Positions 6,186-57,840 of a stretch of DNA of 64,000 nucleotides are shown piece after piece. The stretch's first letter is position 1. Each line of letters opens with the position of its first letter. The notes beneath the pieces are model-generated. The model worked only from the letters and a program-made list of their open reading frames with translations. It was not told where the DNA came from and ran no database searches. A program made the position numbers and the translations under genes. Source of the stretch: Acidovorax sp. T1 (GTDB taxonomy: Bacteria > Pseudomonadota > Gammaproteobacteria > Burkholderiales > Burkholderiaceae_C); the NCBI RefSeq assembly GCF_002176815.1, contig NZ_CP021648.1, positions 2,178,001 through 2,242,000 of the forward strand, written 5' to 3'.

Positions 6186-6953
6186 GTGAAACCTGTCCTG
6201 AACATCTCCTGCTACCAATTCGTGCCCCTGCCCGATGCCGCGGCCTTGCGCGAACTGCTGCACGAGCGGGCCATGGCTGCCGCGCTCAAAGGCACCATCT
6301 TGCTGGCCCACGAAGGCATCAACATGTTCCTGGCGGGCCCGGCAGCGGCGGTGCGCGGCTTTGTGAACGCCCTGCGCGCCGACCCGCGCTTTGCCGATCT
6401 GGAGCCGAAGGAAAGCTGGTCGGACACCGTGCCGTTTCGCAAGATGCTGGTCAAGGTCAAGCGCGAGATCATCCGCATGGACCACCCCGCCATCCAGCCC
6501 TCGGCGGGCCGGGCGCCCGCCGTCACGCCGGCCACTCTGCGCCGCTGGCTAACCCAAGGCCATGACGACGCGGGCCGCCCCGTGGTGACGCTGGACACGC
6601 GCAACGCCTTCGAGGTGGATGAGGGCACGTTCGACCACGCCATCGACTGGCGCATCGACAAGTTCACCGAGTTCCCCCCGGCCCTGCGCGCCCACAAGGC
6701 CGAGCTGGCAGACAAGACGGTGGTGAGCTTTTGCACGGGCGGCATCCGCTGCGAAAAAGCCGCCATCCTGATGCGCGAGGAAGGCCTCACGCATGTCTAC
6801 CAGCTCGAAGGCGGCATCCTGAAATATTTCGAGGAAACGGATGGCGCGCATTACCACGGCGGCTGTTTCGTGTTCGACGAGCGCCGCACGCTGGCCGCAG
6901 ACCTCTCAGCCGGCACGCTGCGCAATGTCGTGGAAGATGCTATTGATAAGTGA
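6186..6953 (+). CDS. trhO: tRNA uridine(34) hydroxylase TrhO (rhodanese family)
   Basis: 255 residues from a GTG at 6186 ([15 protein letters not shown]). The N-terminal ~95 residues form the acylphosphatase-like UPF0176 domain ([16 protein letters not shown], then KVKREIIRM). The rhodanese domain follows, with the active-site loop [10 protein letters not shown] (Cys183). This order matches TrhO (YceA), which hydroxylates U34 of some tRNAs to 5-hydroxyuridine independently of prephenate. It is shorter than enzymes with a long C-terminal Cys-rich tail. The last codons (AIDK) and the stop lie within the left half of a palindromic repeat, so the natural C terminus was probably changed by that insertion. 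Confidence 0.88.
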
Positions 6954-6998
6954 GCTACTAGTGCTTACTACATAAGCGCTAGAGGCATATTTACCTAT
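6938..6998 (+). repeat. Palindromic repeat (family GATAGCT), overlapping 3' end of trhO
   Basis: The element reads through CTATTGATAAG, GAGCTACTAGTGCTTAC and ATAAGCGCTAGAGGC. The inverted core is AGTGCTTAC / ATAAGCGCT. It supplies the stop codon (TGA, 6951-6953) of trhO and fills the convergent gap to the pirin gene. It could act as a bidirectional RNA hairpin. It is one of at least nine copies in the window. Confidence 0.75.
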
Positions 6999-7019
6999 AA
7001 AACCGCGTACAGCCTCGCC

Positions 7020-7907
7020 TCACGGCTTGAAACGGTGCGCTGGCAGGGGAATCCGCTCGGTGTCTCCGGGCACCTGGCCCATCTGGTCGGCTTCCCAGTC
7101 TTGGGCGGCCTGCACGATGCGCTCTTTGTTGCTGGAGACAAAGTTCCACCAAATATGGCGGGGTGCATCCAGCGGCGCACCGCCGATCACCATCAGCCGC
7201 GCCTCCGTGGCGCCCGCCTGCAGCCGTGCCGATGCGGCGGGCGGCAGCACGGCCATGGTGTGTTCGGCCAGTGGCTGGCCATCGAGCTGCACGGCGGCAT
7301 CCACTGCATACACCGCCATTTCCTGCGCCAGGGCGGGCAGCTCCAGCACGCCGCCCGCTGGCAACTGCACATCCAGGTACAGCGTGGGCGACAGGGTGGC
7401 CACCGGCGAGGTCACGCCAAACGCCGACCCGACGAGCACCCGCACCGTGCCGTCGCCCACGGCCAACTCGGCAATGGCGCTGGCGGGCGTGTGCGTGAAC
7501 GAGGGCGGGCAATCTTCCTGCCCCAGCGGCAGTGCGGCCCACAGCTGGATCCCGTGGTTGACATAGTTTTGGGTGGCCAGCGCGGGCGGGCGGCGCTCGG
7601 AATGCACGATGCCACGCCCGGCGGTCATCCAGTTGATGGCGCCGGGCTCGATCTGCTGCACGCTCCCGAGGCTGTCGCGGTGCAGGATGGCGCCCGAGAA
7701 CAGGTAGGTGACCGTGGCCAGGCCGATGTGCGGGTGCGGCCGCACGTCGTATTCGTTCGCGGGCTGCACGGTGACGGGGCCGAAGTGGTCAAAGAACAGG
7801 AATGGCCCCACCGATCGCTGCTGCAGGGCAGGCAGCAGCCGGCGCACCGTGAAACCGCCACCCAGGTCCTTGAAATGGCCGGTGAGCAGGAGCGGGGCGC
7901 TGCTCAT
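7020..7907 (-). CDS. Pirin family protein (bicupin)
   Basis: 295 residues from the ATG at 7907, chosen because it overlaps the stop of the OsmC gene (ATGA), a sign of translational coupling. The frame is open further upstream, but the extra residues are His-rich read-through. The N-terminal cupin holds the metal ligands of pirins: VRPHPHIGLATVTYLF, then GRGIVHSE. A second cupin-like half (Pirin_C) follows. Pirins are iron-binding proteins; some are quercetin dioxygenases or redox-responsive regulators. Together with the neighbouring OsmC, WrbA-like, DoxX and second pirin genes it belongs to a redox-stress cluster. Confidence 0.88.
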   Translation of the reverse strand: MSSAPLLLTGHFKDLGGGFTVRRLLPALQQRSVGPFLFFDHFGPVTVQPANEYDVRPHPHIGLATVTYLFSGAILHRDSLGSVQQIEPGAINWMTAGRGIVHSERRPPALATQNYVNHGIQLWAALPLGQEDCPPSFTHTPASAIAELAVGDGTVRVLVGSAFGVTSPVATLSPTLYLDVQLPAGGVLELPALAQEMAVYAVDAAVQLDGQPLAEHTMAVLPPAASARLQAGATEARLMVIGGAPLDAPRHIWWNFVSSNKERIVQAAQDWEADQMGQVPGDTERIPLPAHRFKP

Positions 7908-8311
7908 GCCATGCGCTCCACGGTGGTGGTGATTTCGGTGGTGACGGCCGTCATGAGCTTGTGCACCGGGCATTTGTGCGCCACGGCCTGCAGTTCCTGC
8001 AGCTGCTCATCGCTGAGCTCACCGCTGATCTGCATGCGGGCCGCGAGGCGGTAGGTGCCCGCGCGCTCGGCCGATGCATCGCGCTCGATCACCGTGCGCA
8101 CGTCGCTCACCGGGATGCCCTTGCGGCGCGCATACCAGAGCACCGTGAGCGCCTTGCAAGAGCCCAGCGCCGCGTCATAAAGGTCGTGCGGATTGGGGCC
8201 CGTGTCGTCCCCGCCCTCTGCGGCTGTGCCATCCACCACCAACGTATGGCTGCGGATGGTCAGCGTCTGCGCCATGGGGGCGGATGTGATGCGATTGAGT
8301 TCAATAGCCAT
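7904..8311 (-). CDS. OsmC family peroxidase-like protein
   Basis: 135 residues from the ATG at 8311. A Shine-Dalgarno TTTGGAG lies at the right distance from this codon; a TTG four codons upstream is the alternative. The two conserved cysteines of the OsmC/Ohr fold are present: Cys in AALGSCKALTV and Cys in VAHKCPVHKLM. These form the thiol active site that reduces organic hydroperoxides. The protein is of the YhfA/OsmC-like branch with the 'GPNPHDLYDAALGSC' motif. The stop overlaps the pirin start by the ATGA arrangement. The WrbA-like gene ends 27 nt upstream. Confidence 0.88.
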   Translation of the reverse strand: MAIELNRITSAPMAQTLTIRSHTLVVDGTAAEGGDDTGPNPHDLYDAALGSCKALTVLWYARRKGIPVSDVRTVIERDASAERAGTYRLAARMQISGELSDEQLQELQAVAHKCPVHKLMTAVTTEITTTVERMA

Positions 8312-8338
8312 CGGAAACTCCAAAGTGGGTTCGATCCA

Positions 8339-11272: not shown

Positions 11273-12427
11273 ATGACAAAACCCGTTTCACGCCCCGCCA
11301 AACGGCCCCGACGCCCCGGCGCCACTGCAGCAGCAACCACCCAACGCCAGCCGGGCAAGGCGGCAAAGGCAGCAAAGACCGCCAGGACGACGCCACGCCA
11401 TTTCGCCATCATTGGCGCGGGCATGGCCGGCGTGGTCTGCGCGCGCACGCTGGTGCAGGCGGGCCACCAGGTCACCGTCTTTGAAAAATCGTCCCAGGCC
11501 GGCGGCCGCACCACCACCATCGACTCGCCGTTCGGCAGCTTTGACGCGGGTGCGCAATATTTCACCGTGCGCGACCCGCGCTTTGCAAAGGCGATCGACA
11601 CCGTGCCCGGCGTGTGCCGGCCCTGGAGCGCCAACGCCGTGCGCGTGCTCGACGCGGCCGGCCGTGTGGCGGCCGCGGGTCTGCCCACCCGTGAACCCCA
11701 CTGGGTGGCCAGCCCCGGCATGAACGCCCTCGTCACCACCTGGGCCGCCCCGTTGCAGCAGGCCGGCCAGCTCATCACCGACACCCGCGTGAGCAGCATC
11801 GAACGCGATCCCCTCAATGGCACCCACTGGCAGGTGCGCACCGAAGGGTTGGGCGGCACGCAGCATGTCTATGCCGGCTTTGATGCGGTGCTGTTGGCCC
11901 AGCCGGCCACGCCGGCCCAGGCGCTGCTGGCGGTTTCGGGCCTGGAAACCCCGCTGAGCGCCGCCATGGCGCGCGTGACCACAGCCCCCTGCTGGACGCT
12001 GATGCTCGCCTACCCGCAAGCCGTGCGCCCGGACCTGACCACCCTCGGCCCCCAGTGGAACGCGGCCCGCAGCACCCACCACCGCATTTCGTGGCTGGCG
12101 CGCGAGTCGTCCAAACCCGGCCGCACCACCGTTGAACGCTGGACGGTGCAAGCCAGTCCGGCCTGGTCGGCAGAGCACCTGGAAGACGACGCGGATCGCG
12201 TGCAGTCCAAGCTGCTCAAGGCGTTTTCTGAAGTCACCGGCATTCGGGCCGAACCCACCCATGCCGACACGCGCCGCTGGCGCTATGCGCAAACCACGCA
12301 ACCCCTGGGCCAGAGCCACCTGTGGGACGCCAGCCTGGCTCTGGGCGCCTGCGGCGACTGGTGCCTGGGCCACCGCCTGGAAGACGCCTTTGTGTCCGGT
12401 CTGGAGCTGGCACTCGACGTGGCATGA
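11273..12427 (+). CDS. NAD(P)/FAD-dependent oxidoreductase (renalase / amine-oxidase-like)
   Basis: 384 residues from the ATG at 11273. The first ~40 residues are Lys/Arg/Ala-rich and disordered ([12 protein letters not shown]), unusual for this family and of unclear purpose. The Rossmann fold starts at [17 protein letters not shown] with the E at the end of beta-2 in VTVFEKS, then the GG motif AGGRTTT. The C-terminal FAD contact is [21 protein letters not shown]. Such proteins are annotated as renalase-like or monoamine-oxidase-like; the substrate is unknown. Its TGA overlaps the gluQ start (ATGA at 12424-12427), so the two are translationally coupled. Confidence 0.85.
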
Positions 12428-13422
12428 CGGGCAGTGAAGGGGCCCAGCGGGCGGCCACTCGTTATCAGGGCCGCTTTGCCCCCTCGCCCACCGGCCCGCT
12501 GCATGCGGGCTCGCTGGTGGCAGCGCTTGCTAGCTGGCTGGATGCGCGGGCCTGGAACGAGGGACGCGGCGGGCGCTGGCTGGTGCGCATCGAAGACGTG
12601 GACACACCGCGCTGCGTGCCCGGCGCTGCCGAGCTCATCTTGCAGCAGCTGGCCACCTGCGGGCTGCTGCCCGACGCACCACCGGTGTGGCAATCAGACC
12701 GCGGCGCGCTGTACCAGCAGGCGCTGGATCAGCTCATCGCGCAGGGCCACGCCTACCCCTGTGCCTGCTCGCGCAAGGACATCGAAGACGCCCACACGGC
12801 GCAAGGCCATGCCCGCGCGCGCCACGCCGCCTTGCCCTACCCCGGCACCTGCCGCCATGGCCTGCACGGGAGGCCCGCGCGATCGTGGCGGTTCAACACC
12901 ACAGACTTCAAGCCAAAACACCCTCTAGCGCTTATGGATCAAGCGCAAGAAGCTACATTTTCAATAGCAGACGGCACCGTGCGCTGGGCGGACCGCCGCC
13001 TCGGCCCTCAGGCACAGCATGTGGCCAGCGCCGTCGGCGACTTCGTGCTGCGCCGCGCGGACGGCCTGTGGGCCTATCAGCTGGCCGTGGTGGTGGACGA
13101 CGCGGCCCAGCAGATCACCCATGTGGTGCGCGGCGAAGATCTGGCCGACAACACGCCGCGCCAGATCCTGCTGCAGCAGGCACTGGGGGTGGCGACACCC
13201 AGCTACCTGCACACCCCGCTGGTCTGCGGCGCCAACGGGGAAAAGCTCTCCAAGCAAAACGGCGCCGCGGCGCTCGACCTATCCGATCCCTTGCAGGCGC
13301 TGGGCAACGCGGCCCAGGTGCTCGGTCTGCCGCCCCTGGACCCTTCCCACAAAAATTCACTGCCGCAGGCACTGGGGATGTGGGTCAATGCCTGGGCGCG
13401 AACCTACAATGGGCCACCGTGA
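12424..13422 (+). CDS. gluQ: Glutamyl-Q tRNA(Asp) synthetase (with in-frame repeat insertion)
   Basis: 332 residues, about 24 more than the E. coli enzyme (308). It has the HIGH-type motif in [15 protein letters not shown], the KMSKS-type motif EKLSKQNG, and the zinc-binding cysteines in YPCACSRKD and YPGTC. There is no anticodon-binding domain, as expected for GluQ-RS, which attaches glutamate to queuosine 34 of tRNA(Asp). Residues ~160-182 ([20 protein letters not shown], roughly) are encoded by a palindromic repeat in antisense orientation, bounded by CAGAC direct repeats 66 nt apart. Without it the chain reads ...[15 protein letters not shown]..., normal for the family. The start overlaps the upstream stop (ATGA); the stop overlaps the trmB start (GTGA). 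Confidence 0.9.
12904..12970 (-). repeat. Palindromic repeat inserted in frame within gluQ
   Basis: On the minus strand this reads GAAAATGTAGCTTCTTGCGC, then TTGATCCATAAGCGC, then TAGAGGGTG, matching the intergenic family. CAGAC occurs at 12902-12906 and again at 12968-12972, exactly 66 nt (22 codons) apart, like a target-site duplication. The antisense frame would hit a stop in the family consensus, but here that codon is sense (CAA). Confidence 0.75.
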
Positions 13423-23042: not shown

Positions 23043-23066
23043 CCGGCACAGGGCCGGTGAGACGTT

Positions 23067-23130
23067 GATATATTTTTGATAGCTGCCAGCGCTTACTGGA
23101 TAAGCGCTAGCGGCCAAAAACACTTCAAAT
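23067..23130 (+). repeat. Palindromic repeat (family GATAGCT), between gabD and yeeE remnant
   Basis: The most complete copy: TTTTTGATAGCTGCCAGCGC, then TTACTGGATAAGCGC, then TAGCGGCCAAAAACAC. The inverted core is AGCGCTTACTGGATAAGCGCT. It fills the convergent gap between gabD and the YeeE remnant, where it could also end transcription. Confidence 0.85.
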
Positions 23131-23139
23131 CATTCCACG

Positions 23140-30211: not shown

Positions 30212-33200
30212 TTATGCCGAGGTTGCCGAAGCATCCAGCCGCATCACCTTCAGCGACTCAATGCCCCGGTCATCCACGATTTTGATCGCCACCATGCGGT
30301 GGTCACCGGCCGAAAACGGCAGCGACACGGTGCCGGTGAAGGCTTGCAGCAACTCTGTATCCAGCTCGGCGCGGATGTCCTTTTTCAGCTTCATCCAGCC
30401 CTCGTCCTTGCCCGCCATCGGGAAGAACACCTGGTGCGGGAACAGGCTGCGCCCGTCGTAGTCGGTATCGAGCTGCCACGCGGCAATCTTGCCCTTGCCG
30501 CCCGACACCAGTTCGCCCTTGGCCGTGTCGAAATAGTCAAAGCCGTTCACCTCCACCTGCCACAGGCCATCGGGCAGTTGCGTCAGCAGCACATCGGGCT
30601 GGCCCATGAGCCAGAAGCTCTGGTTGCTGCTGCGCGCCTTCTTCAGGTCTTCGGTCAGCAAGTCGGTGTTCATCTGCGCCTTCAGCGCGGTGATGCCCTT
30701 GAGCGCATCGATGTCCTTGGCCGCCTCGGGGTCGAAGGCAAAGGCGCAGAACACGATCATCTTGGGGCGGGGGAACAGTTCGCTGGCCTCGTTCAGCGCG
30801 CGCTCCACCTGGCGCTGCTCCAGCGCGCCGTGCTCGGGGCCAAAGCTCACCACCACGCGCGCGCCGCCCAGACCGCCGGCCTCGTCCGATTCCACCAGGC
30901 TGCCGCTGGCGTGCACGCTGGTGGTGCCGGGCAACACCTCCAGCTCGGCAAAGCGCAGCATTTGCCCGCCTTTGCCGCGGATGCCGGTTTTCAGCAACTC
31001 ATCGCGCCAGGTGTGCTGGCGGCTGGTGTGGCCGCTGCGGGCCAGGCTCATATCGGCCAAATCGGCCGCTTGCGCCTGCCCCGCTTGCGCTGGTAGCTCC
31101 TCAAGTGATAGCACAGTGGGGAAGGGCACGGCCTCCACCGTGAACGGGCCGCACACGCGCAGCTTGGCCTTGTCGCGCTCGGGCTGGTCGTACAGGGTTT
31201 CGCTGTCGGCGTTGCTGGCAATGCTGCGGTCCATCTCGGCCTGCATTTTTTGGCGGGCGGTGTGGAAGGCCGCAAGCGGCGCTTGCAGCGCGGCGGGCCA
31301 GTCGGCGGGCAGGTCAAACGGAACTTCCCATTCCTGCAAGTCCTGGCCCTTGCTGCCCAGCGCCAGCTTCTGGCCCTTGCGTGCGCCTTCGGTCACGGGG
31401 AAGGGCAGGGCTGGGGCGTGGGCTTGCAGCGCGGCGTTCAGCGCGGTCAACGCAGATTCGATGCCGGGGTGCAGGCGCTCGTAAATGGCGTCAATCTCGG
31501 CATTGTTGGCAATGCTCTTGAGCGTGACGTGGGGCACGGTCTTGTAGATGAACCCGCCCCGCAGCCCCTCGTTGGGGTAACGCAGGGCGAAGTAATCAAA
31601 GCTGGCGGTCATCAGCCGCTGCTTGGCCAGCGTGATGGCCACGCGCGAGGTGTCGCAGGTAATCCAGCGGCGGCCCCATTTCTCGGCGACATAGGCCGTG
31701 GTACCGGAGCCGCAGGTGGGGTCTAGCACCAAGTCGCCGGGGTCGGTGGTCATCAATATGCAGCGCTCGATAGGCGTCGCAGGTGTTTGAACTGCATAAA
31801 CCTTGGAGTCGCTTCGACTTTGAACCCCGGAAAGATCATTCCATACGTTGGTAATTCGATAGCCCGTGAAATCGTTGAAGTAGCGCACATATGCCGGGCG
31901 CTTCCCTTCAATGCGGACACGATTTGCGAGTAATAAGCGGCCAAAACCTGTTTCGCTGGGTTTCCAATATCCGGGTTCCGGATTAAATTTTTGACCGTTT
32001 AGTTCAATTTGGTATCGCCCGCCAGGCCGTTGAGATGTGATCGTGTCCAGACGAAATGCCCTGCCATCTGAAAAATCTGAATCTCCTTCTGCTTCCTTGG
32101 CTGTGAGCACGCGACCATTTGGCATTTGAATGGATCGGTACTTTGAACCACCTTCTCCGCCCAATTCTTTCTCGGTAAAAATTGGTCGAAATTTAACGGA
32201 ACTTTCATCCTTCGCGTACCACACCAAGTAATCACAAATGCCAGCGACACGATTGGTTTTTTCACTTGTTGTCGTTGTGAATGCAATTTGAGAAACGAAA
32301 TTTTGTACGCCGAATAATTCGTCCATCAGATTTCGCACAAGGTGCACGTTTTCATCCGAAATCTGCACAAACACGCTGCCCGATTCGCTCAATAAATCCC
32401 GCGCCAGCAGCAGCCGGTCGCGCAAATACGTCAAATACGAGTGAATGCCCAGCTCCCAGGTATCGCGGAAGGCTTTGATCATTTCGGGCTCTTGCGTCAA
32501 ATCCGCATCGGCCCGGTCTTTCACGTCGCGCTTGCCCACAAAGGGCTGGAAGTTGCTGCCGTACTTGATGCCGTAGGGCGGGTCGATGTAAATCATCTGC
32601 ACCTGCCCGGCCATGCCTTCTTTTTGCAGCAGGCTGTTCATCACCAGCAGGCTGTCGCCCGCCACCAGCCGGTTGGCCCAGCCGCGGTCGTGTTTGTAAA
32701 AGTCCAGCGCCGAGCGCAGGGGCACGTTCTCGAACGGCGCCTCAAACAGGCCGGGCTGGAAAAAGTTTTGGTGTTTTTGGCCTCTAGCGCCCGTTCCACT
32801 TGCGCCAGCAGCTACTAATTTGCTAGCGTTTTGGCGCTTGCCCACGCTGCTCAAAATGCTCATGGCGTCAATGCGCTCGTGCACATGCAGGCTCACGGTG
32901 TCCACCTCAAACGCAGTGCGCTCGGCCTTGCCCGTCCATTGCAAATAGGGCGCACCCATGCGTTGCAGCGTTTGCAGGGCGTGGCGCATGGCGGCGGGGT
33001 CGTTGCCGGCCAGGGCGTCGGCAATCAGGCTATCTGCCTGGGCGCGGGCGCTGTCGAACTGCAGGGCCGGGTCGAGGTGGGGGTCGTAGGCCCAGGCGGT
33101 TTTGGGCTGCTCGGGGTCGCTTTCGGTGTTGACCAGGCCCACTTCGGGGTTGTTTTTGCGCCGGTCGGGGTGGCGGTAGGCCAGCACCTGGGCGTCGCCG

Positions 33201-33553
33201 GTGTCAATCTGGCTGGGCGTGGGTTTGGCTTTAGCGGGCTTGGCCTGCTTGACGGCTGCGGCGGAGGCATTGGGCGCTGGTACTGCTGGGGCATCGAGCG
33301 CAAACGCGGGGCGTGCCGCGCCGGTGGCCCGGGCAGTGGCGCCGCCGCGCCCTTTGCCTTTGACGGCCAGGCCCGCGGCCACCAGTGCCTCGCGTGCAGT
33401 TTTGAAGTCGTCTTCGATGGCTGGCGGCTTGTGTCCTGCGGCGGTGGCAGCAGCCAAAAACTGCTCTAGCAGCGTGATGTTGCCCACGGTGGTGTGGTCT
33501 GCCGGCAGCAGGTTGAGCAACAGCGTTTGCAGCTGTTGTTGTTCGTTGGTCAT
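30212..33553 (-). CDS. mod: Site-specific DNA methyltransferase (beta class, type III Mod-like), with repeat insertion
   Basis: About 1113 residues from the ATG at 33553 (MTNEQQQLQTLL); an ATG three codons upstream sits too close to the GAGGGG. Catalytic motif IV DPPYGIKYGSNF (near 325) comes before SAM motif I LDPTCGSGTT (near 612), the order of beta-class N6-adenine or N4-cytosine methyltransferases. A long N-terminal and a C-terminal region, perhaps for target recognition and Res contact, flank it. Residues ~241-263 (NASKLVAAGASGTGARGQKH) come from an in-frame palindromic repeat between CCAAAAC direct repeats 63 nt apart. Without it the chain reads SSVGKRQNFFQPGLF. It is the first gene of the island operon. 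Confidence 0.9.
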   Translation of the reverse strand: MTNEQQQLQTLLLNLLPADHTTVGNITLLEQFLAAATAAGHKPPAIEDDFKTAREALVAAGLAVKGKGRGGATARATGAARPAFALDAPAVPAPNASAAAVKQAKPAKAKPTPSQIDTGDAQVLAYRHPDRRKNNPEVGLVNTESDPEQPKTAWAYDPHLDPALQFDSARAQADSLIADALAGNDPAAMRHALQTLQRMGAPYLQWTGKAERTAFEVDTVSLHVHERIDAMSILSSVGKRQNASKLVAAGASGTGARGQKHQNFFQPGLFEAPFENVPLRSALDFYKHDRGWANRLVAGDSLLVMNSLLQKEGMAGQVQMIYIDPPYGIKYGSNFQPFVGKRDVKDRADADLTQEPEMIKAFRDTWELGIHSYLTYLRDRLLLARDLLSESGSVFVQISDENVHLVRNLMDELFGVQNFVSQIAFTTTTSEKTNRVAGICDYLVWYAKDESSVKFRPIFTEKELGGEGGSKYRSIQMPNGRVLTAKEAEGDSDFSDGRAFRLDTITSQRPGGRYQIELNGQKFNPEPGYWKPSETGFGRLLLANRVRIEGKRPAYVRYFNDFTGYRITNVWNDLSGVQSRSDSKVYAVQTPATPIERCILMTTDPGDLVLDPTCGSGTTAYVAEKWGRRWITCDTSRVAITLAKQRLMTASFDYFALRYPNEGLRGGFIYKTVPHVTLKSIANNAEIDAIYERLHPGIESALTALNAALQAHAPALPFPVTEGARKGQKLALGSKGQDLQEWEVPFDLPADWPAALQAPLAAFHTARQKMQAEMDRSIASNADSETLYDQPERDKAKLRVCGPFTVEAVPFPTVLSLEELPAQAGQAQAADLADMSLARSGHTSRQHTWRDELLKTGIRGKGGQMLRFAELEVLPGTTSVHASGSLVESDEAGGLGGARVVVSFGPEHGALEQRQVERALNEASELFPRPKMIVFCAFAFDPEAAKDIDALKGITALKAQMNTDLLTEDLKKARSSNQSFWLMGQPDVLLTQLPDGLWQVEVNGFDYFDTAKGELVSGGKGKIAAWQLDTDYDGRSLFPHQVFFPMAGKDEGWMKLKKDIRAELDTELLQAFTGTVSLPFSAGDHRMVAIKIVDDRGIESLKVMRLDASATSA
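32772..32827 (-). repeat. Palindromic repeat inserted in frame within mod
   Basis: On the minus strand it reads AGTAGCTGCTGGCGC, then GGGCGCTAGAGGCC and AAAAACACC, as in the intergenic copies. GTTTTGG occurs at 32765-32771 and 32828-32834 on the plus strand, 63 nt (21 codons) apart. It is read in the stop-free frame of the consensus (LVAAGASGTGARGQK). Confidence 0.75.
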
Positions 33554-37283: not shown

Positions 37284-37313
37284 GCGATATCCGCGCCATA
37301 TCGCTCTTTTTTT
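37284..37313 (+). terminator. Rho-independent terminator of asmA
   Basis: GCGATAT (37284-37290) pairs with ATATCGC (37298-37304) around a seven-base loop, followed by TCTTTTTTTG. The T-run is at the same time the left end of a palindromic repeat. Confidence 0.85.
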
Positions 37314-37362
37314 GATAGCTGCTAGCGCTTTACCCATAAGCGCCATAGACCATTTTCAGTAA
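37307..37362 (+). repeat. Palindromic repeat (family GATAGCT), downstream of asmA
   Basis: TTTTTTTGATAGCTGCTAGC, then GCTTTACCCATAAGCGC, then CATAGACCATTTTCAG. It shares its T-run with the asmA terminator. The gap to the end of dnaE2 (37363-37458) shows nothing else. Confidence 0.8.
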
Positions 37363-37458
37363 AATTTCGGCAAAAGAGCTGCATGCCACCAGCGGCCGTC
37401 ACGAGGGCGAACGCTTCCCGCGAGATCGTCAAAGCGACCTGCGACCCTTGACCTCCTC

Positions 37459-40400
37459 TCAATGAAAATCCCGGCTGCCCTGCAGCGCCTGCGCCATGCG
37501 CCCGAGCAGCGGTGTGAGGTCTCTGAAGCGCTGGGCCACCAGGTGGCGCACCACGGCCTGGCCGTCGGGGCCATGGGGGCTGCACTGCCACACGCCCTCC
37601 ACCGCCAGCAGTTGCGAGCGCAGCAGCGCGTTGCGCCAGGTCTCGACCAGTGCGGGCCACACGATCACGTTGACGGGGCCGGTCTCGTCCTCCAGCGTGA
37701 CAAACATCGTGCCCTTGGCCGTGCCAGGGCGCTGGCGCACGGTGACGATGCCGCAGGCGCGCACCTTGCGGCCGTTGGGTGCGCTGTGCAGCTGCAGCGC
37801 GGTCTGCAACCGCCAGCGCACCAGGCGCGGGCGCAGCAGGGCCAGCGGGTGGCGGCGCAGGGTGAGGCCGGTGGCGGCGTAGTCGAACAATATTTCTTCC
37901 CCCTCGGGTGCGGCGGGCAGCGCCAGTGGTGCTTCGTGCACCGGCACATCGCGCCACAAGGGCGGCGCGCTGTGTTGCGCGGCGGCCTCCCACATCTGCT
38001 GGCGCCGGTGGCCCGAAAGGCTGGCCAGCGCATCGGCCGCAGCCAGGGCCTGCAGGTCTTGCTGGCTCAGTTGCGCCCGCAAGGCCAGGTCTTCGGTGCT
38101 GGTGAAAGGCGCAGCGGCCCGGGCCTGCACCAGGCGCTGCGTGGCGCTGGCGTGCAGGCCGCTGACCAGGCACAGGCCCAAGCGCACGGCCGGTTGCGGC
38201 AGCAGCGGCGTGGGCAGCCCCTTGGCGGGCCGCAGGCGCTCTTCCGGGCCTTCGAGCGTGCAATCCATATCGCTGCAGGTCACGTCGATGGGCAGCACGC
38301 GCACACCGTGGCGGCGGGCGTCCTGCACCAGTTGAGAGGCGCTGTAAAAGCCCATGGGCAGCGAGTTGAGCAGCGCGGCCAGAAAACACGCGGGTTCGTG
38401 GCACTTGAGCCAGCTGCTGGCATAGGCCAGCAAGGCAAAGCTGTGCGCGTGGCTTTCGGGAAAGCCATATTCGCCAAAGCCCAGCATCTGCTGAAAGATG
38501 GCCTGGGCGAATTCGGTGCGATAGCCGCGTGCCTCCATGCCGTCGATCAGCGGGCGCTCGAACCGGTGCACACCGCCCTTGCGCTTCCAGGCGGCCATGG
38601 ACCGGCGCAGGTCATCGGCCATGCCGGGACTGAAGCCCGCTGCAATCATGGCGATCTGCATCACCTGTTCCTGAAAGATCGGCACGCCCAGGGTGCGGGC
38701 CAGGGCGGCTTCGAGCTCGGGCTTTTCCAGCTGCAGCGGCTCGCCCTTGCGCCTGCGCTCGCGCGCCTGCAGGTAGGGGTGCACCATGCCGCCCTGGATG
38801 GGGCCGGGCCGCACGATGGCCACCTGCACCACCAGGTCGTAGAACACGCGTGGCTGCAGGCGCGGCAGCATGCTCATCTGCGCACGGCTTTCGATCTGGA
38901 ACACGCCCACGGTGTCGGCGGCGCAGACCATGTCGTAGGTGGCTGCATCCTCGCGCGGAATGTCGTGCAGCAGCCAGCGTTCGCCGCGCAGCACAGCGCG
39001 CAGGTCCAAACAGCGGCGCAGCGCGCTGAGCATGCCCAGCGCCAGCACATCGACCTTGAGCAGGCCCATGGTGTCCAGGTCGTCCTTGTCCCACTGGATG
39101 ACGCTGCGGCCCTCCATGCTCGCGGGCTCCACCGGCACCAGGCGCGTGAGCTTGCCCTGCGTGAGCACAAAGCCCCCCACATGCTGGCTCAGGTGGCGCG
39201 GAAAGCCCTTGAGCTGCGCGGCCAGCTCCAGCCACAGCGCGGCGGTGTGCCAGTGCAGGGGCACCCCCACCGCCTGGGCCAGTTCCTGCAGGCGGTCGGT
39301 GGCAATGCCTTCGTCAAACCAGTGGTGGTCTTTGGCAAAGGCATCCACCAATGCGGGTGCCACGCCCAGCGCCTTGCCCACATCGCGCAGGGCGCTGCGC
39401 GTGCGATAGGTGGTGACCACGGCGGTGATGGCGGCGCGGTCACGGCCGTATTTGGCATAGATGTACTGGATGACCTCCTCGCGACGGTCGTGCTCGAAGT
39501 CCACATCGATGTCGGGTGGCTCGCTGCGCTCCTTGCTGATGAAACGCTCGAACAGCAGGTGCGAATCCTCCGGAGCAACCGCCGTGATGCCCAGCACATA
39601 GCAGACGACCGAGTTGGCGGCCGAGCCCCGCCCCTGGCACAGGATGCCCCGGCTGCGCGCAAAGCGCACGATGTCGTGCACCGTGAGGAAGTACATCTCG
39701 TACTGGCAGTGCGCAATCAGCGCAAGCTCCTTGCGGATCTGTGCGCCAATGGTGGCGGGCACGCCCTGCGGGTAAAAGCCTGTGGCACCGGCCTCGACCA
39801 GCCAGGCCAGGGCCTGAGCGGGTGTCATGCCCTCTGGCACCGTCTCCAGGGGGTACTGGTACTTGATCTCGTCGAGGCTGAAGTGGCAGCGCCCTGCCAC
39901 CGTGAGCGTGGCGGCCAGCAACTCGGGCGGGTAGATGCCCGCCAGGCGCACGCGCTGGCGCAGGTGGCGCTCGGCATTGGGCTGCAGGGCAAAGCCGCAT
40001 TCGGCCACGCTGCACCCACGCTGCACGGCGGTGATCACGTCCTGCAGCGGCTTGCGCGAGCGGGCGTGCATGTGCACATCGCCCGCCGCCACCAGCGGCA
40101 GGCCCAGCGCAGCACCCGCGCGCTGCAGCGTGGCCAGCCACAGGCTGTCGTCGGGGGCCAGGTGCAGCTCGACCGCCAGCCAGAGGCGACCATCAAAATT
40201 TGAGCAAAATTGACCTCTTGCGCTTGATACACAAGCGCTGACAGCTACAAAATCAGAAGCATCAAAGCGCTCGCGACAAGGGGCCAGCAACAGCTCGCAC
40301 CCATCCAGAAGGCTAAAGGGGCTGGCGGTGCCTACGTGGTATTGCCCCTTGGGCGCCCCCGCACGGGCTGCGGTGATGAACTCGCACAGATTGCCCCAAC

Positions 40401-40719
40401 CCTGCGCATCCCGCGCCAACGCCACCAGCCGCAGGTCGCCCCACACAAACTCGCTGCCCACGATGAGGTGCAGGCCACATTCCTTGGCGGCCTCCCAGGC
40501 GCGCACCACACCCGCCACCGAGCACTCATCGGTCAGCGCCAGGGCCTGGTAACCCAGTTGGGCAGCACGGGCCACCAGATCCTGCGGGTGGGAGGCGCCG
40601 CGCTGAAAACTGAAGTTGGACAGGCAATGCAGCTCGGCATAACCCGGCAAAGGCGCAGGCGATGGCATGGCGCCCCCCGATGGAGCGGACATTGCCGACG
40701 GCATGGAGACAGACGCCAT
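37459..40719 (-). CDS. dnaE2: Error-prone DNA polymerase DnaE2 (with repeat insertion)
   Basis: 1086 residues from the ATG at 40719; a TTG at 40731 overlapping imuB is possible. The PHP domain opens with YAELHCLSNFSFQRGASHPQ. The polymerase core holds catalytic aspartates in PDIDVDFEHDRREEVI. The C-terminal part has the DnaE2 OB fold without the tau- and beta-binding tail of DnaE1. It performs SOS mutagenic translesion synthesis with ImuA and ImuB. Residues ~152-174 (ASDFVAVSACVSSARGQFCS) come from a palindromic repeat between CATCAAA direct repeats 69 nt apart. Without it the chain reads APCRERFDGRLWLAVELH. It is last in the imuA-imuB-dnaE2 operon and overlaps or abuts imuB. Confidence 0.93.
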   Translation of the reverse strand: MASVSMPSAMSAPSGGAMPSPAPLPGYAELHCLSNFSFQRGASHPQDLVARAAQLGYQALALTDECSVAGVVRAWEAAKECGLHLIVGSEFVWGDLRLVALARDAQGWGNLCEFITAARAGAPKGQYHVGTASPFSLLDGCELLLAPCRERFDASDFVAVSACVSSARGQFCSNFDGRLWLAVELHLAPDDSLWLATLQRAGAALGLPLVAAGDVHMHARSRKPLQDVITAVQRGCSVAECGFALQPNAERHLRQRVRLAGIYPPELLAATLTVAGRCHFSLDEIKYQYPLETVPEGMTPAQALAWLVEAGATGFYPQGVPATIGAQIRKELALIAHCQYEMYFLTVHDIVRFARSRGILCQGRGSAANSVVCYVLGITAVAPEDSHLLFERFISKERSEPPDIDVDFEHDRREEVIQYIYAKYGRDRAAITAVVTTYRTRSALRDVGKALGVAPALVDAFAKDHHWFDEGIATDRLQELAQAVGVPLHWHTAALWLELAAQLKGFPRHLSQHVGGFVLTQGKLTRLVPVEPASMEGRSVIQWDKDDLDTMGLLKVDVLALGMLSALRRCLDLRAVLRGERWLLHDIPREDAATYDMVCAADTVGVFQIESRAQMSMLPRLQPRVFYDLVVQVAIVRPGPIQGGMVHPYLQARERRRKGEPLQLEKPELEAALARTLGVPIFQEQVMQIAMIAAGFSPGMADDLRRSMAAWKRKGGVHRFERPLIDGMEARGYRTEFAQAIFQQMLGFGEYGFPESHAHSFALLAYASSWLKCHEPACFLAALLNSLPMGFYSASQLVQDARRHGVRVLPIDVTCSDMDCTLEGPEERLRPAKGLPTPLLPQPAVRLGLCLVSGLHASATQRLVQARAAAPFTSTEDLALRAQLSQQDLQALAAADALASLSGHRRQQMWEAAAQHSAPPLWRDVPVHEAPLALPAAPEGEEILFDYAATGLTLRRHPLALLRPRLVRWRLQTALQLHSAPNGRKVRACGIVTVRQRPGTAKGTMFVTLEDETGPVNVIVWPALVETWRNALLRSQLLAVEGVWQCSPHGPDGQAVVRHLVAQRFRDLTPLLGRMAQALQGSRDFH
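40198..40259 (-). repeat. Palindromic repeat inserted in frame within dnaE2
   Basis: On the minus strand GATTTTGTAGCTGTCAGCGC, then TTGTGTATCAAGCGC, then AAGAGGTCAATTTTG. CATCAAA at 40191-40197 and 40260-40266 (plus strand) flank it, 69 nt or 23 codons apart. It is read in the stop-free frame of the family (FVAVSACVSSARGQF). Confidence 0.8.
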
Positions 40720-49139: not shown

Positions 49140-49724
49140 ATGAGCCGCTACCCTTTTCCCGACCTGAGTGCCCTGCCCAAAGACATCCGCACCCGCATTC
49201 TCGAAGTGCAGGAGAAAGCGGGCTTCATCCCCAACGTGTTCCTGGCGTTTGCGCGCCGTCCGGCCGAATGGCGCGCGTTTTTTGCGTACCACGATGCGCT
49301 GATGCTCAAGGAAGAAGGCAGCCTGACCAAGGGCGAGCGCGAGATGATCGTCACTGCCACCAGTGCCGCCAACCAGTGCCTGTATTGCGTGGTGGCCCAT
49401 GGCGCGATCTTGCGCATCTACGAAAAGAAACCGTTCGTGGCCGACCAGGTGGCCGTGAACCACCGCAAGGCCGACATCACGCCACGCCAGCGCACCATGC
49501 TCGACTTTGCAATGAAAGTCTGCCAGCGCTCGCACGAGGTCGAGGATGCCGACTTCACCGCCCTGCACGCCCATGGCTTTGACGACGAGGACATCTGGGA
49601 CATTGCGGCCATCACGGCGTTCTTTGGCCTGAGCAACCGCATGGCCAGCTTTGCCGGCATGCAGCCCAACCCCGAGTTTTATCTGATGGGCCGCGTGCCC
49701 AAAGCCAGAAAACCCACCGAATAA
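49140..49724 (+). CDS. AhpD-like / peroxidase-related carboxymuconolactone decarboxylase family protein
   Basis: 194 residues from the ATG at 49140, after Shine-Dalgarno AAGGAG. The redox motif is NQCLYCVVAHGA: CxxC followed by His, the AhpD-type thiol centre. It belongs to the 'uncharacterised peroxidase-related enzyme' group of AhpD-like proteins. It may reduce peroxides or alkylperoxiredoxin through the CxxC pair. It is divergent from katG and shares that promoter region, supporting a peroxide-stress role. A palindromic repeat follows the stop at once. Confidence 0.88.
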   Translation: MSRYPFPDLSALPKDIRTRILEVQEKAGFIPNVFLAFARRPAEWRAFFAYHDALMLKEEGSLTKGEREMIVTATSAANQCLYCVVAHGAILRIYEKKPFVADQVAVNHRKADITPRQRTMLDFAMKVCQRSHEVEDADFTALHAHGFDDEDIWDIAAITAFFGLSNRMASFAGMQPNPEFYLMGRVPKARKPTE

Positions 49725-49725
49725 C

Positions 49726-49790
49726 TATGATTTTGATAGCTACCAGCGCTTGATATTAAAGCGCTACACGGCAATTTGATTCAAAATCAT
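49726..49790 (+). repeat. Palindromic repeat (family GATAGCT), end of AhpD-like gene
   Basis: ATGATTTTGATAGCTACCAG, then CGCTTGATATTAAAGCGCT, then GATTCAAAATCAT. Its outer ends ATGATTTTGA / TCAAAATCAT are inverted too, so the whole 60-bp element can fold. It overlaps the stop codon of the thioesterase gene (49787-49789) on the other strand and may terminate both transcripts. Confidence 0.8.
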
Positions 49791-51149: not shown

Positions 51150-52856
51150 ATGACAAACCAAGAAATCCTCGCCCAATACGGTCCCCGCGAAGCCATGGAA
51201 TATGACGTGGTCGTGGTGGGCGGCGGCCCCGCCGGCCTGTCCACCGCCATCCGGCTCAAGCAGCTGGCCGCCGAAAAAGGCCAGGACGTGTCGGTGGTGG
51301 TGCTGGAAAAAGGCTCCGAGCCCGGCGCGCACATTCTTTCGGGCGCGATCATGGACCCCAAGGCGCTGACCGAGCTGATTCCCAACTGGAAGGAACTCGG
51401 CGCCCCGCTGAACCAGCCCGTCACCGACGACGCCATGGTGTTCCTGGGCGAGAAATCGTCGTTTCGCACGCCCAACTTCCTGCTGCCAGGCTGTTTTCAG
51501 AACCACGGCAACTACATCGTCAGCCTGGGCAACGTCACGCGCTGGCTGGCGCAGCAGGCCGAGAACCTGGGCGTGGAAATCTTCCCCGGCTTTGCCGCCG
51601 CCGAAGTGCTCTACAACGACAACGGCAGCGTCAAGGGCGTGGCCACCGGCAACATGGGCGTGAGCAAGGAGGGCGAGCCCACGGGCGACTTCCAGCTCGG
51701 CATGGAACTGCACGCCAAGTACACCATCTTTGCCGAGGGCGCGCGCGGCCATCTGGGCAAGCAGGTCATCGCCCGCTTCAAGCTCGATGCCGAAAGCGAC
51801 CCGCAGACCTACGGCCTGGGCATCAAGGAACTGTGGGAAATCGACCCCGCCCGCCACCAGCCCGGCTTTGTGTTGCACACCGCCGGCTGGCCCATGGACA
51901 ACAACACCTACGGCGGCGCCTTCCTGTACCACATGGAAGACAACAAGGTCACGCTGGGCTTCATCACGGGCCTGGACTACGCCAACCCGTACCTCAGCCC
52001 GTTCGAGGAATTCCAGCGCTGGAAGACGCACGCCAACATCCGCTACTACCTGGAAGGCGACGAATCCAAGGGCATCAAGCCGGCCAAGCGCATCAGCTAC
52101 GGCGCCCGCGCCATCACGGCCGGTGGCCTGATGAGCCTGCCCAAGACCGTGTTCCCGGGCGGCGCGCTGGTGGGCTGCGATGCGGGTTACCTCAACGTCA
52201 GCCGCATCAAGGGCAGCCATGCCGCCATCAAGACCGGCATGCTGGCCGCCGAGGCCGCCTATGAGGCCATCACCGGTGGGCGCCAGCACGACGAACTCAC
52301 GGCCTACCCCAAGGCGTTCGAAGCCAGCTGGCTCTACACCGAGCTGAACAAGGCGCGCAACTTCAAGGCATGGTTCAAGAAGGGCCTGACGGTGGCCACG
52401 GTGATGAACGGTATCGAGCAGTTCGCGCTCAAGGGCCACATCCCATGGACGCTGCACCGCGACAAGCCCGACCACGCCTATCTGAAGCCCGCCGCCGAGT
52501 GCAAGCCCATCGCCTATCCCAAGCCCGATGGCAAGATCACCTTCGACCGCCTCTCCAGCGTGTTCGTGAGCAACACCAACCACGCCGAAAACCAGCCAGC
52601 GCACCTGACGCTGAAAGACACCAGCGTGCCGGTGAACATCAACCTGGCCAAATACGCTGGCCCCGAGGCCCGCTACTGCCCGGCCGGCGTGTACGAGTTT
52701 GTGCCCGACGAAGCCAAGGGCGGCAGCGCGCAGCGCCTGCAGATCAACGCGCAAAACTGCGTGCACTGCAAAACCTGCGACATCAAGGACCCGACGCAAA
52801 ACATTGTCTGGGTCACGCCCGAAGGTGGCGGCGGCCCGAACTACTCGGGCATGTAA
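51150..52856 (+). CDS. Electron transfer flavoprotein-ubiquinone oxidoreductase
   Basis: 568 residues from the ATG at 51150 (MTNQEILAQYGPREAMEYD). FAD binding is VVVGGGPAGLSTAIRL. The membrane and quinone-binding region lies in the middle. The C-terminal [4Fe-4S] cluster cysteines are in YCPAGVYEF and NCVHCKTCDIKDP. It feeds electrons from acyl-CoA dehydrogenases, through ETF, into the ubiquinone pool at the inner membrane. It is monocistronic, ended by a strong terminator. Confidence 0.95.
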   Translation: MTNQEILAQYGPREAMEYDVVVVGGGPAGLSTAIRLKQLAAEKGQDVSVVVLEKGSEPGAHILSGAIMDPKALTELIPNWKELGAPLNQPVTDDAMVFLGEKSSFRTPNFLLPGCFQNHGNYIVSLGNVTRWLAQQAENLGVEIFPGFAAAEVLYNDNGSVKGVATGNMGVSKEGEPTGDFQLGMELHAKYTIFAEGARGHLGKQVIARFKLDAESDPQTYGLGIKELWEIDPARHQPGFVLHTAGWPMDNNTYGGAFLYHMEDNKVTLGFITGLDYANPYLSPFEEFQRWKTHANIRYYLEGDESKGIKPAKRISYGARAITAGGLMSLPKTVFPGGALVGCDAGYLNVSRIKGSHAAIKTGMLAAEAAYEAITGGRQHDELTAYPKAFEASWLYTELNKARNFKAWFKKGLTVATVMNGIEQFALKGHIPWTLHRDKPDHAYLKPAAECKPIAYPKPDGKITFDRLSSVFVSNTNHAENQPAHLTLKDTSVPVNINLAKYAGPEARYCPAGVYEFVPDEAKGGSAQRLQINAQNCVHCKTCDIKDPTQNIVWVTPEGGGGPNYSGM

Positions 52857-52881
52857 AAACCATAGCACCTTGCGCATGAAG

Positions 52882-52903
52882 GGCCTGCGCTGCAGGCCTT
52901 TTT
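52882..52903 (+). terminator. Rho-independent terminator of ETF-QO gene
   Basis: GGCCTGC-GCT-GCAGGCC followed by TTTTT, 26 nt after the stop codon. Confidence 0.88.
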
Positions 52904-53066
52904 CGTTAATTTTTTAACCGCACCGCGCTGAAATCCCGACCCTGCCACGGGGCGGCTTGCCCCGCTTGCCAGCGCGGTGCCTGAGCGCAGTAAACTTGCT
53001 AGTTGGCCCCTTTGCAGCGTGTGCAGGCCAACCCGATCCATCCAAAAAACCAGAAAGACCGCGCAG

Positions 53067-55879: not shown

Positions 55880-55946
55880 AATATCAAATTGATAGCTGCA
55901 TGCGCTTACTGGATAAGCACAGGCGGCCAATTTGGCTTGAATATCA
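55880..55946 (+). repeat. Palindromic repeat (family GATAGCT) with 7-bp flanking duplication
   Basis: AATTGATAGCTGCATGCGC, then TTACTGGATAAGCACAG, then GCGGCCAATTTGGCTTG. AATATCA stands at both edges (55880-55886 and 55940-55946), like a target-site duplication. It separates the convergent ABC ATPase and Lrp genes. Confidence 0.85.
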
Positions 55947-56411: not shown

Positions 56412-56433
56412 TATTCCAAAAAGACCGCATTGG

Positions 56434-56448
56434 CAGAAAATTTTTCTG
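56434..56448. promoter_or_regulatory. 15-bp palindrome upstream of the Lrp gene
   Basis: CAGAAAATTTTTCTG is a perfect palindrome around a single T, 23 nt before the Lrp start codon. AT-rich centre and size suit an Lrp-type operator. Confidence 0.6.
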
Positions 56449-56802
56449 AAAACAACCCGAAACAACGCCAATTCAGAAGATTAATCGGCCATCCGCGCGG
56501 CATACTTTGCTGCATCAAGGCGCTCTTACCCGGGTGCACAAACTGACAAGGCCCCGGCGGGTTACCGCCCGCCCGGGGCGCTTGGCAAGCATCCCCCCAA
56601 CGCTACCTGTTGCTGCCCTGTCCCGCATGTGACCCCGGTGCGCTGCGATGCGCCTGGCACGCCGCTGATAAGCATGCTTACCAGCACAAACCCCGATGCC
56701 CGGCGCCATGTTGCAGCGCCATAATTTTTGCAGTGCGCGGCGCAGGCCCGCGCCGCAACCTGCACCGCAGGCCACACGCAATCACACCCCTCAGGAGACA
56801 CC
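56449..56802. other. Non-coding gap between Lrp gene and TRAP operon
   Basis: 354 bases without a supported gene. It should hold the promoter of the TRAP operon. A GC-rich hairpin near 56550-56580 (GCCCCGG / CCGGGGC) has no T-run. A good Shine-Dalgarno (TCAGGAGAC) precedes dctP. Confidence 0.5.
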
Positions 56803-57774
56803 ATGCAATTGACCAGACTCGTCGTCGGCCTCGGCCTTGCCATCGGCTTCATGGCCAGCGCTGCCGCGCAGACCACCATGCGCATCAGCATCTCGACGGC
56901 GCAGAACTCGCACCAGGGCGTGGCCATTGACACCTTTGCCAAGGAAGTCGAAAAGCGCACGGGCGGCCGCTACAAGGTGCAAACCTTCTACAACGGCGCA
57001 CTGGGTGGCGAGCGCGAGTCGATTGAAGCCGTGCAGCTGGGCACGCAAGAGCTGGCCTTCAGCTCCACCGGCCCCATCCCCAATTTCGTGCCCGAAACAA
57101 AAATCCTCGATGTGCCCTTCCTGTTCCGCGACAAGGCCCATGCGCGCGCCGTGCTCGACGGCCCCATCGGCCAGGAGATGCTGACCAAGTTCGACAGCAA
57201 GGGCTTCAAGGCCCTGGCCTGGGCCGAAAACGGCTTTCGCCACATGACCAACAGCAAGCGCGACGTGAAGGAGCCCGGCGACCTCAAGGGCCTGAAGATG
57301 CGCACGATGGAGAACCCCGTGCACATCGCGGCCTACAAGGGCTTTGGCATCATCACCACGCCCATGGCCTTCCCCGAGGTGTTCACCGCCCTGCAGCAAG
57401 GCACCGTGGACGGCCAGGAGAACCCGCTGCCCGTGATCATCTCGGCCAAGTTCGACCAGGTGCAAAAGCACCTCACGCTCACCGGTCATGTGTACTCGCC
57501 CTGCATCTTCGTGATGAACAAGGCGGCTTTTGACAAGCTCAGCGCTGCCGACAAGCAGGCCTTCCTCGACGCCGCCAAGGAAGGCACCAAGGCCAACCGC
57601 GCGCGCGTGGACGAAGACGACGCCAAGGGCGTGGCCGACCTGCGAGCCAAGGGCATGACCGTGATCGACACCGTGGACAAGGCCAAGTTCGTGGCCGCGT
57701 TGGCCCCCGTCAATGCCGAGTTTGAAAAGCAGTTCGGCAAGGCAGCGCTCGACAAGATCCGCAACGTGAAGTAA
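56803..57774 (+). CDS. dctP: TRAP transporter solute-binding protein DctP
   Basis: 323 residues from the ATG at 56803. The signal peptide ends at ASAAA (before QTT). The family body has RISISTAQNSHQGVAIDTFAKEVEKRTGGRY, the conserved LKGLKMRTMENPV with the carboxylate-binding Arg, and DGQENPL. It captures a carboxylate, possibly a C4-dicarboxylate or another organic acid, in the periplasm for the DctQM permease. A terminator made from a palindromic repeat follows the gene. Confidence 0.92.
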   Translation: MQLTRLVVGLGLAIGFMASAAAQTTMRISISTAQNSHQGVAIDTFAKEVEKRTGGRYKVQTFYNGALGGERESIEAVQLGTQELAFSSTGPIPNFVPETKILDVPFLFRDKAHARAVLDGPIGQEMLTKFDSKGFKALAWAENGFRHMTNSKRDVKEPGDLKGLKMRTMENPVHIAAYKGFGIITTPMAFPEVFTALQQGTVDGQENPLPVIISAKFDQVQKHLTLTGHVYSPCIFVMNKAAFDKLSAADKQAFLDAAKEGTKANRARVDEDDAKGVADLRAKGMTVIDTVDKAKFVAALAPVNAEFEKQFGKAALDKIRNVK

Positions 57775-57786
57775 TCCGCACAGCGC

Positions 57787-57840
57787 TTTCTTTTTGATAG
57801 CTATCAGCGCCCGTCGGCAAAGCGCCAACGGGCGTTTTTA
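57787..57840 (+). terminator. Terminator formed inside a palindromic repeat, after dctP
   Basis: TTTTTGATAGCTATCAGC is the usual left half of the repeat family. The right half has diverged so that CGCCCGT and ACGGGCG pair and a TTTTTATT run follows, a complete Rho-independent terminator. It lies between dctP and dctQ and would lower dctQM relative to dctP. Confidence 0.75.

Follow-up and report, generated by a model that had tools for sequence, protein, structure and literature searches.

Elements of the REP/RAYT type (repetitive extragenic palindromes with a REP-associated tyrosine transposase) are short, dispersed, mostly extragenic and quasi-palindromic. Another short repeat, BRE, has been described in Bordetella and in some Comamonadaceae and has some of its copies in coding sequence (PMC3110155). 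For the DNA uptake sequences (DUS) of Neisseriaceae it has been argued that many new copies originate from recombination rather than from point mutation (PMC2397512). A survey from 2017 listed two motif pairs as potential novel motifs, GCTTAT(N)5AAGCG with 114 copies in Acidovorax ebreus and ATAGCT(N)22CAAAAG with 125 copies in Polaromonas naphthalenivorans (PMC5217627, Table 7). By letters and spacing, both match the core and the arms of a repeat of about 66 bp that is the subject of this study. We analysed it in Acidovorax sp. T1, starting from a stretch of 64,000 nucleotides (contig NZ_CP021648.1, positions 2,178,001 to 2,242,000 of the forward strand; here called the window). The motif pairs of the survey are, like this repeat, mostly intergenic and often located between convergent genes, with some copies in genes (5 and 18). 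The section of the survey that lists them differs in that it gives the two pairs separately and holds no 66-bp unit, no link across genomes, no evolution inside genes, no dialects and no mechanism. In the openly licensed literature on repeats and DNA uptake in Comamonadaceae and Acidovorax, no further description of the element, of its in-place evolution or of dialects was found. An earlier note on the window had described a family of palindromic mini-elements and compared it with the protein-inserting palindromic elements of Rickettsia (RPE). Our analysis shows a DNA-level site that is kept in place and carries a lineage-specific core on common arms.

The copies were identified with a profile trained on the copies of the T1 genome. 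The sample consisted of 80 stretches of 20 kb and the window, together 1.664 Mb of the 4.4-Mb genome, and reversed sequence was used as a control. At the main threshold of E<=1e-3 the profile matched 233 places, 10 of them inside the window, where three weaker copies were added at E<=0.1. The reversed sequence gave no match, even at E<=1. The density is about 140 copies per Mb, which extrapolates to an estimated 570 copies on the 4.1-Mb chromosome. All nine places that the earlier note had named, six intergenic ones and those in gluQ, mod and dnaE2, were recovered, and they belong to one repeat family that is located inside genes as well as between them.

The unit has a length of about 66 bp with sharp edges. 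An alignment of the 70 better-scoring intergenic copies is free of gaps in every row and has the consensus nTGCTATnnATTTnATAGCTGCTAGCGCTTnnTnnATAAGCGCTAGAGGCCnATTTnACTnAAAnTn; the information content is about 56 bits per site (0.838 x 67). The layout is two-fold symmetric, with a central half site, a GC contact and an AT-rich outer tract on each side of a 7-nt spacer. In Acidovorax the central core is AGCGCTT-N7-AAGCGCT. Both stems could be anchored in 210 of 232 copies, and in all of these the loop was exactly 7 nt long. The palindrome reported earlier is real for the centre of the unit and confined to it, since the AT-rich outer arms are not complementary. Pairwise identity within the genome has a median of 58% and a maximum of 84% (209 copies), which speaks against recent duplicates and against homogenisation. 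The strongest correlations of letters were observed between neighbours, foremost in the right AT tract with its runs of AAA or TTT. At the first two positions of this tract (58 and 59) we found TT in 165 copies, AA in 52 and other pairs in 5 (n=222). Swaps of this kind are expected if rigid A tracts are preferred and suggest that A-tract shape matters.

For the placement of the copies relative to genes, 232 of the 233 copies could be anchored and our own hexamer-based gene calls were used in place of a published annotation. Inside genes, 28 copies are antisense and 18 sense. The stop-free frame noticed before is the one in use: 13 of the 18 sense copies are in phase 1 and 21 of the 28 antisense copies in phase 0, presumably because the remaining frames contain stop codons.

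To follow the origin of the in-gene copies, 17 of the 44 in-gene sites were compared with orthologues from four genomes: the motif-poor G002 and G005 from the same genus, G072 from a different genus and G030 from a different family. Few traces of the motif, or none, are present in G005, G072 and G030. The segment between the conserved flanks, which measures 66 nt in T1, was at least 42 nt long in at least one of these three genomes at 13 of the 17 sites. Since motif-poor orthologues have segments of similar length, the motif was mostly written over existing code with small changes in length. At these 13 sites it has evolved in place rather than by insertion, as is known for DUS and for the uptake signal sequences (USS) of Pasteurellaceae.

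The age of a site and the constraint on it were analysed in dnaE2 (37459-40650, minus strand), which holds a sense copy at 40195..40263 (minus strand, 44.7 bits). The synteny of the window was checked against the genomes G007 and G015, and both have this copy at the same place. Altogether, it was found there in 27 of 28 same-genus orthologues with scores of 13-62 bits, the exception being G005. The anchors on its two sides are 24 residues apart in Burkholderia, Cupriavidus and Collimonas, 28 in the motif-bearing G022 and 32 in T1, as counted on the alignment. In 25 of the 28 orthologues (L123 without the motif and the partial L126 and L127 were left out) 71% of the codons in the element columns end with A or T. 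In the other 1022 (overlapping) windows of this GC-rich gene the median share is 13% and the highest 32%. Where the amino acid is the same, codon identity at the element was 0.30 above expectation, compared to a median of 0.16 in the other windows; as some of these reach 0.316, the base composition is the stronger sign.

The dnaE2 site was then followed into other genera with a set of named loci, the best 80 of 591 confirmed candidates, in which A. facilis (89%) and A. radicis (85%) were the nearest named dnaE2 matches and place the genus as Acidovorax. Of 79 orthologues, 15 had the arms in the corresponding stretch of dnaE2: four from Polaromonas, three from Rhodoferax, two each from Acidovorax and Comamonas, and four from metagenome-assembled genomes (MAGs). 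The arm scores were at least 13 in these 15 and at most -0.6 in the rest. The sites of Comamonas testosteroni and A. facilis have the first 22 bases in common, after which their cores differ. Shared arms with differing cores indicate that the same place was rewritten in different dialects. The proposal that the repeat spreads in general by RPE-like insertion was not supported, given the conservation in 27 of 28 same-genus orthologues, the arms at the same place in other genera and the overwriting at 13 of the 17 in-gene sites. At dnaE2 the findings are those that the earlier note itself had named as refuting its interpretation. In four Polaromonas loci (L244, L255, L259 and L222) two more sites were observed upstream of dnaE2 at matching places (about 9.6 and 8.8 kb), so site positions seem to be conserved there too.

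Dialects of the core were observed within the genus and beyond it. In G002, 13 of 15 orthologous in-gene sites were the best-scoring window of their locus, compared with 3 of 16 in G005, none of 14 in G072 and 1 of 12 in G030. The 13 aligned G002 sites, in windows picked with the matrix of the main dialect, showed the exchanges T30A in 7, A40T in 8 and T45C in 11; positions 30 and 40 are mirror partners. A matrix of the arms only found 8-9 windows in 400 kb of G002. Six of these were in register, one of them also among the 13 sites, and they had an A at position 30 in five, a T at position 40 in five and a C at position 45 in all six.

Other genera carry the same arms with cores of their own. 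For this test the core was masked, the highest score of the reversed sequence was taken as the threshold, and 76 of the 80 loci were placed in groups (L270, L272, L274 and L275 were left out). Arms sites were found in Polaromonas (17 in 107 kb), Rhodoferax (16 in 113 kb), Comamonas together with Delftia (6 in 62 kb, none of these in Delftia), Paracidovorax (2 in 23 kb) and uncultured relatives (12 in 348 kb). Variovorax had three weak sites in 246 kb, and Aquabacterium with Ideonella had one in 113 kb. The arms matrix found no site in Ramlibacter with Caenimonas, in the Pseudorhodoferax group, in the Burkholderia group or in 23 kb of Polaromonas JS666. The cores of Polaromonas are CGCnCGTCC and AAGGGCTAG-like, some of the five sites of C. 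testosteroni have CCTAT and ATAGA-like cores, and the right half site of the Burkholderiaceae MAG L254 was TGGGTA in six of six.

The dialects were compared with 113 windows in six groups, where the group called own consisted of five stretches and did not include the 64-kb window. The core identity was 0.649 within and 0.473 between the groups, a difference of 0.176, and the largest difference in 300 label shuffles was 0.087. For the arms the values were 0.529 and 0.507, with a difference of 0.023 and a largest shuffle of 0.021. The groups were chosen after the result of the arms matrix had been seen, and the label test is therefore descriptive. Shared ancestry of orthologous sites inflates the value within groups, but it would do so for the arms too. 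The motif is thus present in lineage dialects, as are DUS and USS.

The distribution among relatives was examined at three levels. In the genus sample (n=30), 28 genomes including T1 had at least 141 matches each, G002 had 5 and G005 had 4. In the family sample, 92 of 250 genomes had at least one match, many of them at least 20, and these belong to 62 of 141 genera. In a sample of the order, 7 of 200 genomes matched, T1 counted. On the smaller contigs C2-C4 of T1, one copy was found in 156 of 318 kb sampled, where 22 were expected, and at E<=1e-3 the consensus matched 5 of 72,556 plasmid records. As for DUS and USS, the core genome is preferred and the sites are rare on acquired DNA; the exception is a variable region with a mod-like gene that holds copies. 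Single stretches of 52 bases with 79-81% identity to the consensus were seen in the Salmonella record AB571791.1 and in the E. coli plasmid NZ_MZ513635.1 (E 3e-3 and 2e-4), which are possibly DNA acquired from Comamonadaceae, or chance.

The genes that host a copy were scanned with NCBIfam at E<=1e-40 (20 of 44) or 1e-25 (24 of 44), and the control genes at 1e-25. Among the 44 hosts, eight encode ComEC, DnaE2, UvrA, MutL, UvrD, XseA, a RarA-like protein and RecG. The length-weighted control genes (n=45) included one such gene (GyrA) or two, when a RadD-like helicase is counted (p 0.014 or 0.041 by Fisher's test); for the RarA-like and the RadD-like protein the match is below the curated cut-off. 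Further hosts are purL, nadE and argF, one host is HrpA by NCBIfam, and the host labelled CoaX had no NCBIfam match at E<=1e-40. The xseA gene (L059:17374-18699) has two separate copies of the site.

With a probability of roughly 45%, we propose that the repeats are DNA recognition sites, mostly not inserted elements, and serve as a self signal in DNA uptake or recombination. A symmetric trans-acting protein or complex would read the arms and the core, and the core would change along with its reader. This reader might belong to the competence apparatus or work with it, and the sites might then mark the DNA of each lineage as its own for uptake or recombination and build up in place like DUS and USS. 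The proposal fits the in-place evolution, the bias for the core genome, the apparent bias for repair genes and the dialects, as they have been described for DUS and USS. It also fits what is reported on competence, in passages that name no motif: natural competence is described for A. temperans and A. facilis, DNA of another Acidovorax species gave no detectable transformation in the Acidovorax tested, and there is evidence of selective uptake in Verminephrobacter eiseniae (PMC4212676).

Several observations weigh against an uptake signal. The site of about 66 bp is far longer than the 9-12 bp of DUS and USS, and 140 sites per Mb are several times sparser. The sites are absent from some close relatives and genera. 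G002 keeps the G/C positions best and loses A/T, with a density of just 20-40 sites per Mb, which is partly what GC-biased decay would give, so that decay is part of the picture. The bias for genome-maintenance hosts is modest, was spotted before it was tested and was measured with a small control set. At gluQ, YfiH and WaaA the sites look like gains of 39-63 nt. No competence gene among those compared, ComEC and PilQ, followed the sites, and no reader protein was identified. ComEC was present in 240 of the 250 family genomes and does not separate site-bearing from site-less genomes; it was detected in G002 and was not found in G005, nor in the site-rich drafts G003 and G020. PilQ was above the cut-off in 26 of the 30 genus genomes, including G002 and G005. 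Both proteins were dropped as partner candidates because they do not discriminate. In the site-rich genomes G004 (C1:952814-954105) and G020 (C147:194212-195542) pilQ comes as two separate frames, perhaps through assembly errors or because the gene is broken.

The main rival, which shares most of the evidence, sees the sites as binding places of a chromosome-organising (nucleoid) protein or complex. It would be dimeric or multi-subunit, bend the AT tracts and read the core, with a specificity that evolves by lineage. We consider this somewhat unlikely. The two-fold symmetric contacts and the A-tract swaps agree with it, and the dialects are equally well explained. It is also favoured by the lack of an orientation bias with respect to strand or replichore (128 copies on the plus and 105 on the minus strand, with both orientations in each replichore). 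The spacing was slightly more even than chance, with 38 gaps below 2 kb compared to a mean of 49 in simulations that respected the gene map and allowed one copy per intergenic slot; a number as low was reached in 1.7% of the simulations. Gaps below 300 bp were not unusual (11% of the simulations). This mild over-dispersion is in line with a nucleoid protein, as are the chromosome preference over the smaller contigs and the lower number of copies in divergent regions, where we found 15 in 168 regions of at least 70 bp, compared with 32 in 117 convergent regions. A nucleoid protein does not predict the apparent bias of the in-gene hosts for repair and uptake genes, and the lack of the main motif in several genera and in 2 of the 30 genus members would be odd for an architectural system.

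A mobile mini-element that resembles REP, RPE or a miniature inverted-repeat transposable element (MITE) is clearly unlikely. It would have spread by insertion in an ancestor and would now be fixed, decaying or partly adopted by the host. The case for it is best followed in gluQ (12424-13422, plus strand), where an antisense copy is located at 12904..12970 (minus strand, 48.0 bits) with a CAGAC direct repeat at its edges; G007 and G015 both have the copy at this position. The segment of 66 nt is reduced to 3-15 nt in G005, G072 and G030, and the protein is about 20-21 amino acids longer in T1 than in G005 and G072. In the same three genomes the segment measures 6-21 nt in YfiH, 21-27 nt in WaaA and 15-36 nt in HrpA. 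The clearest exception to overwriting is gluQ, where insertion fits, as it may in YfiH and WaaA; in HrpA an in-frame insertion is possible. The comparison with orthologues lacking the insert that the earlier note had called for gave, with motif-poor genomes, extra residues at gluQ and perhaps at YfiH and WaaA, and a segment of similar length at 13 of the 17 sites.

The flanking direct repeats, also claimed before, are present as CAGAC at gluQ and as TTTGATG at dnaE2. Across the copies their excess is weak and their register is not fixed: of 231 copies, 53 are flanked by repeats of at least 6 bp, while swapping the flanks gives an expectation of 40 (p 0.02). A mini-element would also account for the intergenic copy near 37330, downstream of dnaE2 between convergent genes (37300..37368, plus strand, 54.0 bits), whose presence varies between species and which was found in neither G007 nor G015. 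Against a mini-element stand the lack of near-identical copies, the alignment of 70 copies without gaps, the overwriting at most coding sites tested and the DNA-level constraint in dnaE2. The different cores at shared sites argue against a mini-element as the only cause.

A transposase link was not observed either. The RAYT-type gene (PF01797), to which the earlier note had pointed as a possible partner, was present in 22 of 23 same-genus genomes, including the motif-poor G002 and G005. A copy of the repeat within 1.5 kb was found at 3 of 21 RAYT loci from motif-rich genomes and at 3 of 32 overall. REP/RAYT was therefore rejected as a partner system. In three species a copy is located near the 3' end of the RAYT-type gene (L011, L147 and L158, from T1, G011 and G021); about one-tenth of the genes have a 3'-adjacent intergenic copy, so these may be chance. 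A MITE is not supported, as the best pair is 84% identical and the flanking repeats have no fixed register, and a young transposition was rejected because of the low identity of the copies.

An RNA element acting as a terminator, mRNA stabiliser or small-RNA-like hairpin is very improbable. The centre can fold and the intergenic copies are close to gene 3' ends (median 19 bp, compared with 83 bp to 5' ends), but the stem has no compensatory changes, with no arm-to-arm covariation beyond shuffles (paired cells 82.5% vs 82.6%, covariation score 0.084 vs 0.092), for which a structured RNA was rejected, the orientation to co-directional genes shows no clear preference (43 same, 36 opposite), copies occur inside genes such as purL, nadE, uvrA and argF, and the window copies gave no Rfam match at gathering thresholds.

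The remaining copies of the window are mostly intergenic and on the plus strand. The first (6935..7005, 44.2 bits) overlaps the end of the gene at 6186-6953 and recurs at this position in both G007 and G015. The intergenic copy at 23064..23131 (59.6 bits) is at the same place in G015 and weakly in G007, the one at 49720..49788 (53.7 bits) is at the same place in G007 and absent in G015, and the one at 57782..57849 (33.6 bits) has weak matches at the same place in both. Another copy is located between convergent genes at 55880..55944 (52.3 bits), and a weak one at 52855..52909 (22.5 bits), the tenth by score, is intergenic at the 3' end of the gene at 51150-52856. A very weak copy in a coding region at 62862..62926 (15.1 bits) was listed at E<=0.1. 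On the minus strand, the gene that the earlier note had called mod (30212-33553) holds a sense copy at 32761..32830 (28.3 bits) and a weak one at 31052..31114 (18.7 bits, listed at E<=0.1). This gene had no NCBIfam match at E<=1e-25. G007 and G015 have the conserved neighbours but lack the region of about 23.1-33.7 kb that includes this gene; the region is variable, yet has one or two copies of the site. Two tandem glycine riboswitch aptamers (59649-59891) precede gcvT (59936-61072), a gene of glycine cleavage.

If the sites were an uptake system, this would explain the species-specific transformation in Acidovorax and the selective uptake in Verminephrobacter, and the switching of dialects could be followed in place at conserved sites. 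It would then be a hidden barrier to gene exchange across a family of environmental bacteria, and the dialects would predict the partners of DNA exchange. If the sites organise the chromosome, they would represent a genome-wide binding code whose specificity was switched several times at fixed places, with a protein and hundreds of sites co-evolving. Under either reading the sites constrain the choice of codons and amino acids in core genes such as dnaE2.

Among the known systems, the DUS of Neisseriaceae are alike in their very many core-genome sites and their lineage dialects with a shared part, and perhaps in their bias for genome-maintenance genes (PMC3630211, PMC2397512). They are unlike in having 10-12 bp, a CTG core and the known receptor ComP, whereas the present site is about 66 bp long, symmetric and sparser, and its role as a signal is putative. 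The USS of Pasteurellaceae resemble it by a core with AT tracts of relevant shape, by evolution through point mutations and by lineage variants; they are shorter (a core of 9 bp with AT tracts), belong to a different family and have an experimentally shown uptake (PMC7811141). The Rickettsia RPE are likewise palindromic, present in many copies and in-frame within unrelated genes. They differ as inserting elements of about 150 bp, whereas the sites described here mostly overwrite existing code where tested in genes, are old and are common to several species (PMC10969869). An in-frame insertion of a segment missing from orthologues is clear at gluQ and was not found at 13 of the 17 sites. BRE shares with the present repeat the short length, some copies in coding sequence and the occurrence in some Comamonadaceae, and is set apart by its description, with 75-91 bp, 69% GC in Bordetella, a frequent tandem arrangement and at most 29 copies per genome (PMC3110155). 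The present element is also short, dispersed, mostly extragenic and quasi-palindromic as REP/RAYT elements are, but the RAYT gene rarely has a copy nearby, the copies are 58% alike and RAYT is present without the repeats. In conclusion, the Comamonadaceae may, by analogy, recognise their own DNA by long sites of dyad symmetry, in which the arms are shared and the core is specific to the genus, and which we tentatively place beside DUS and USS as a further, and the longest, candidate uptake-signal system.

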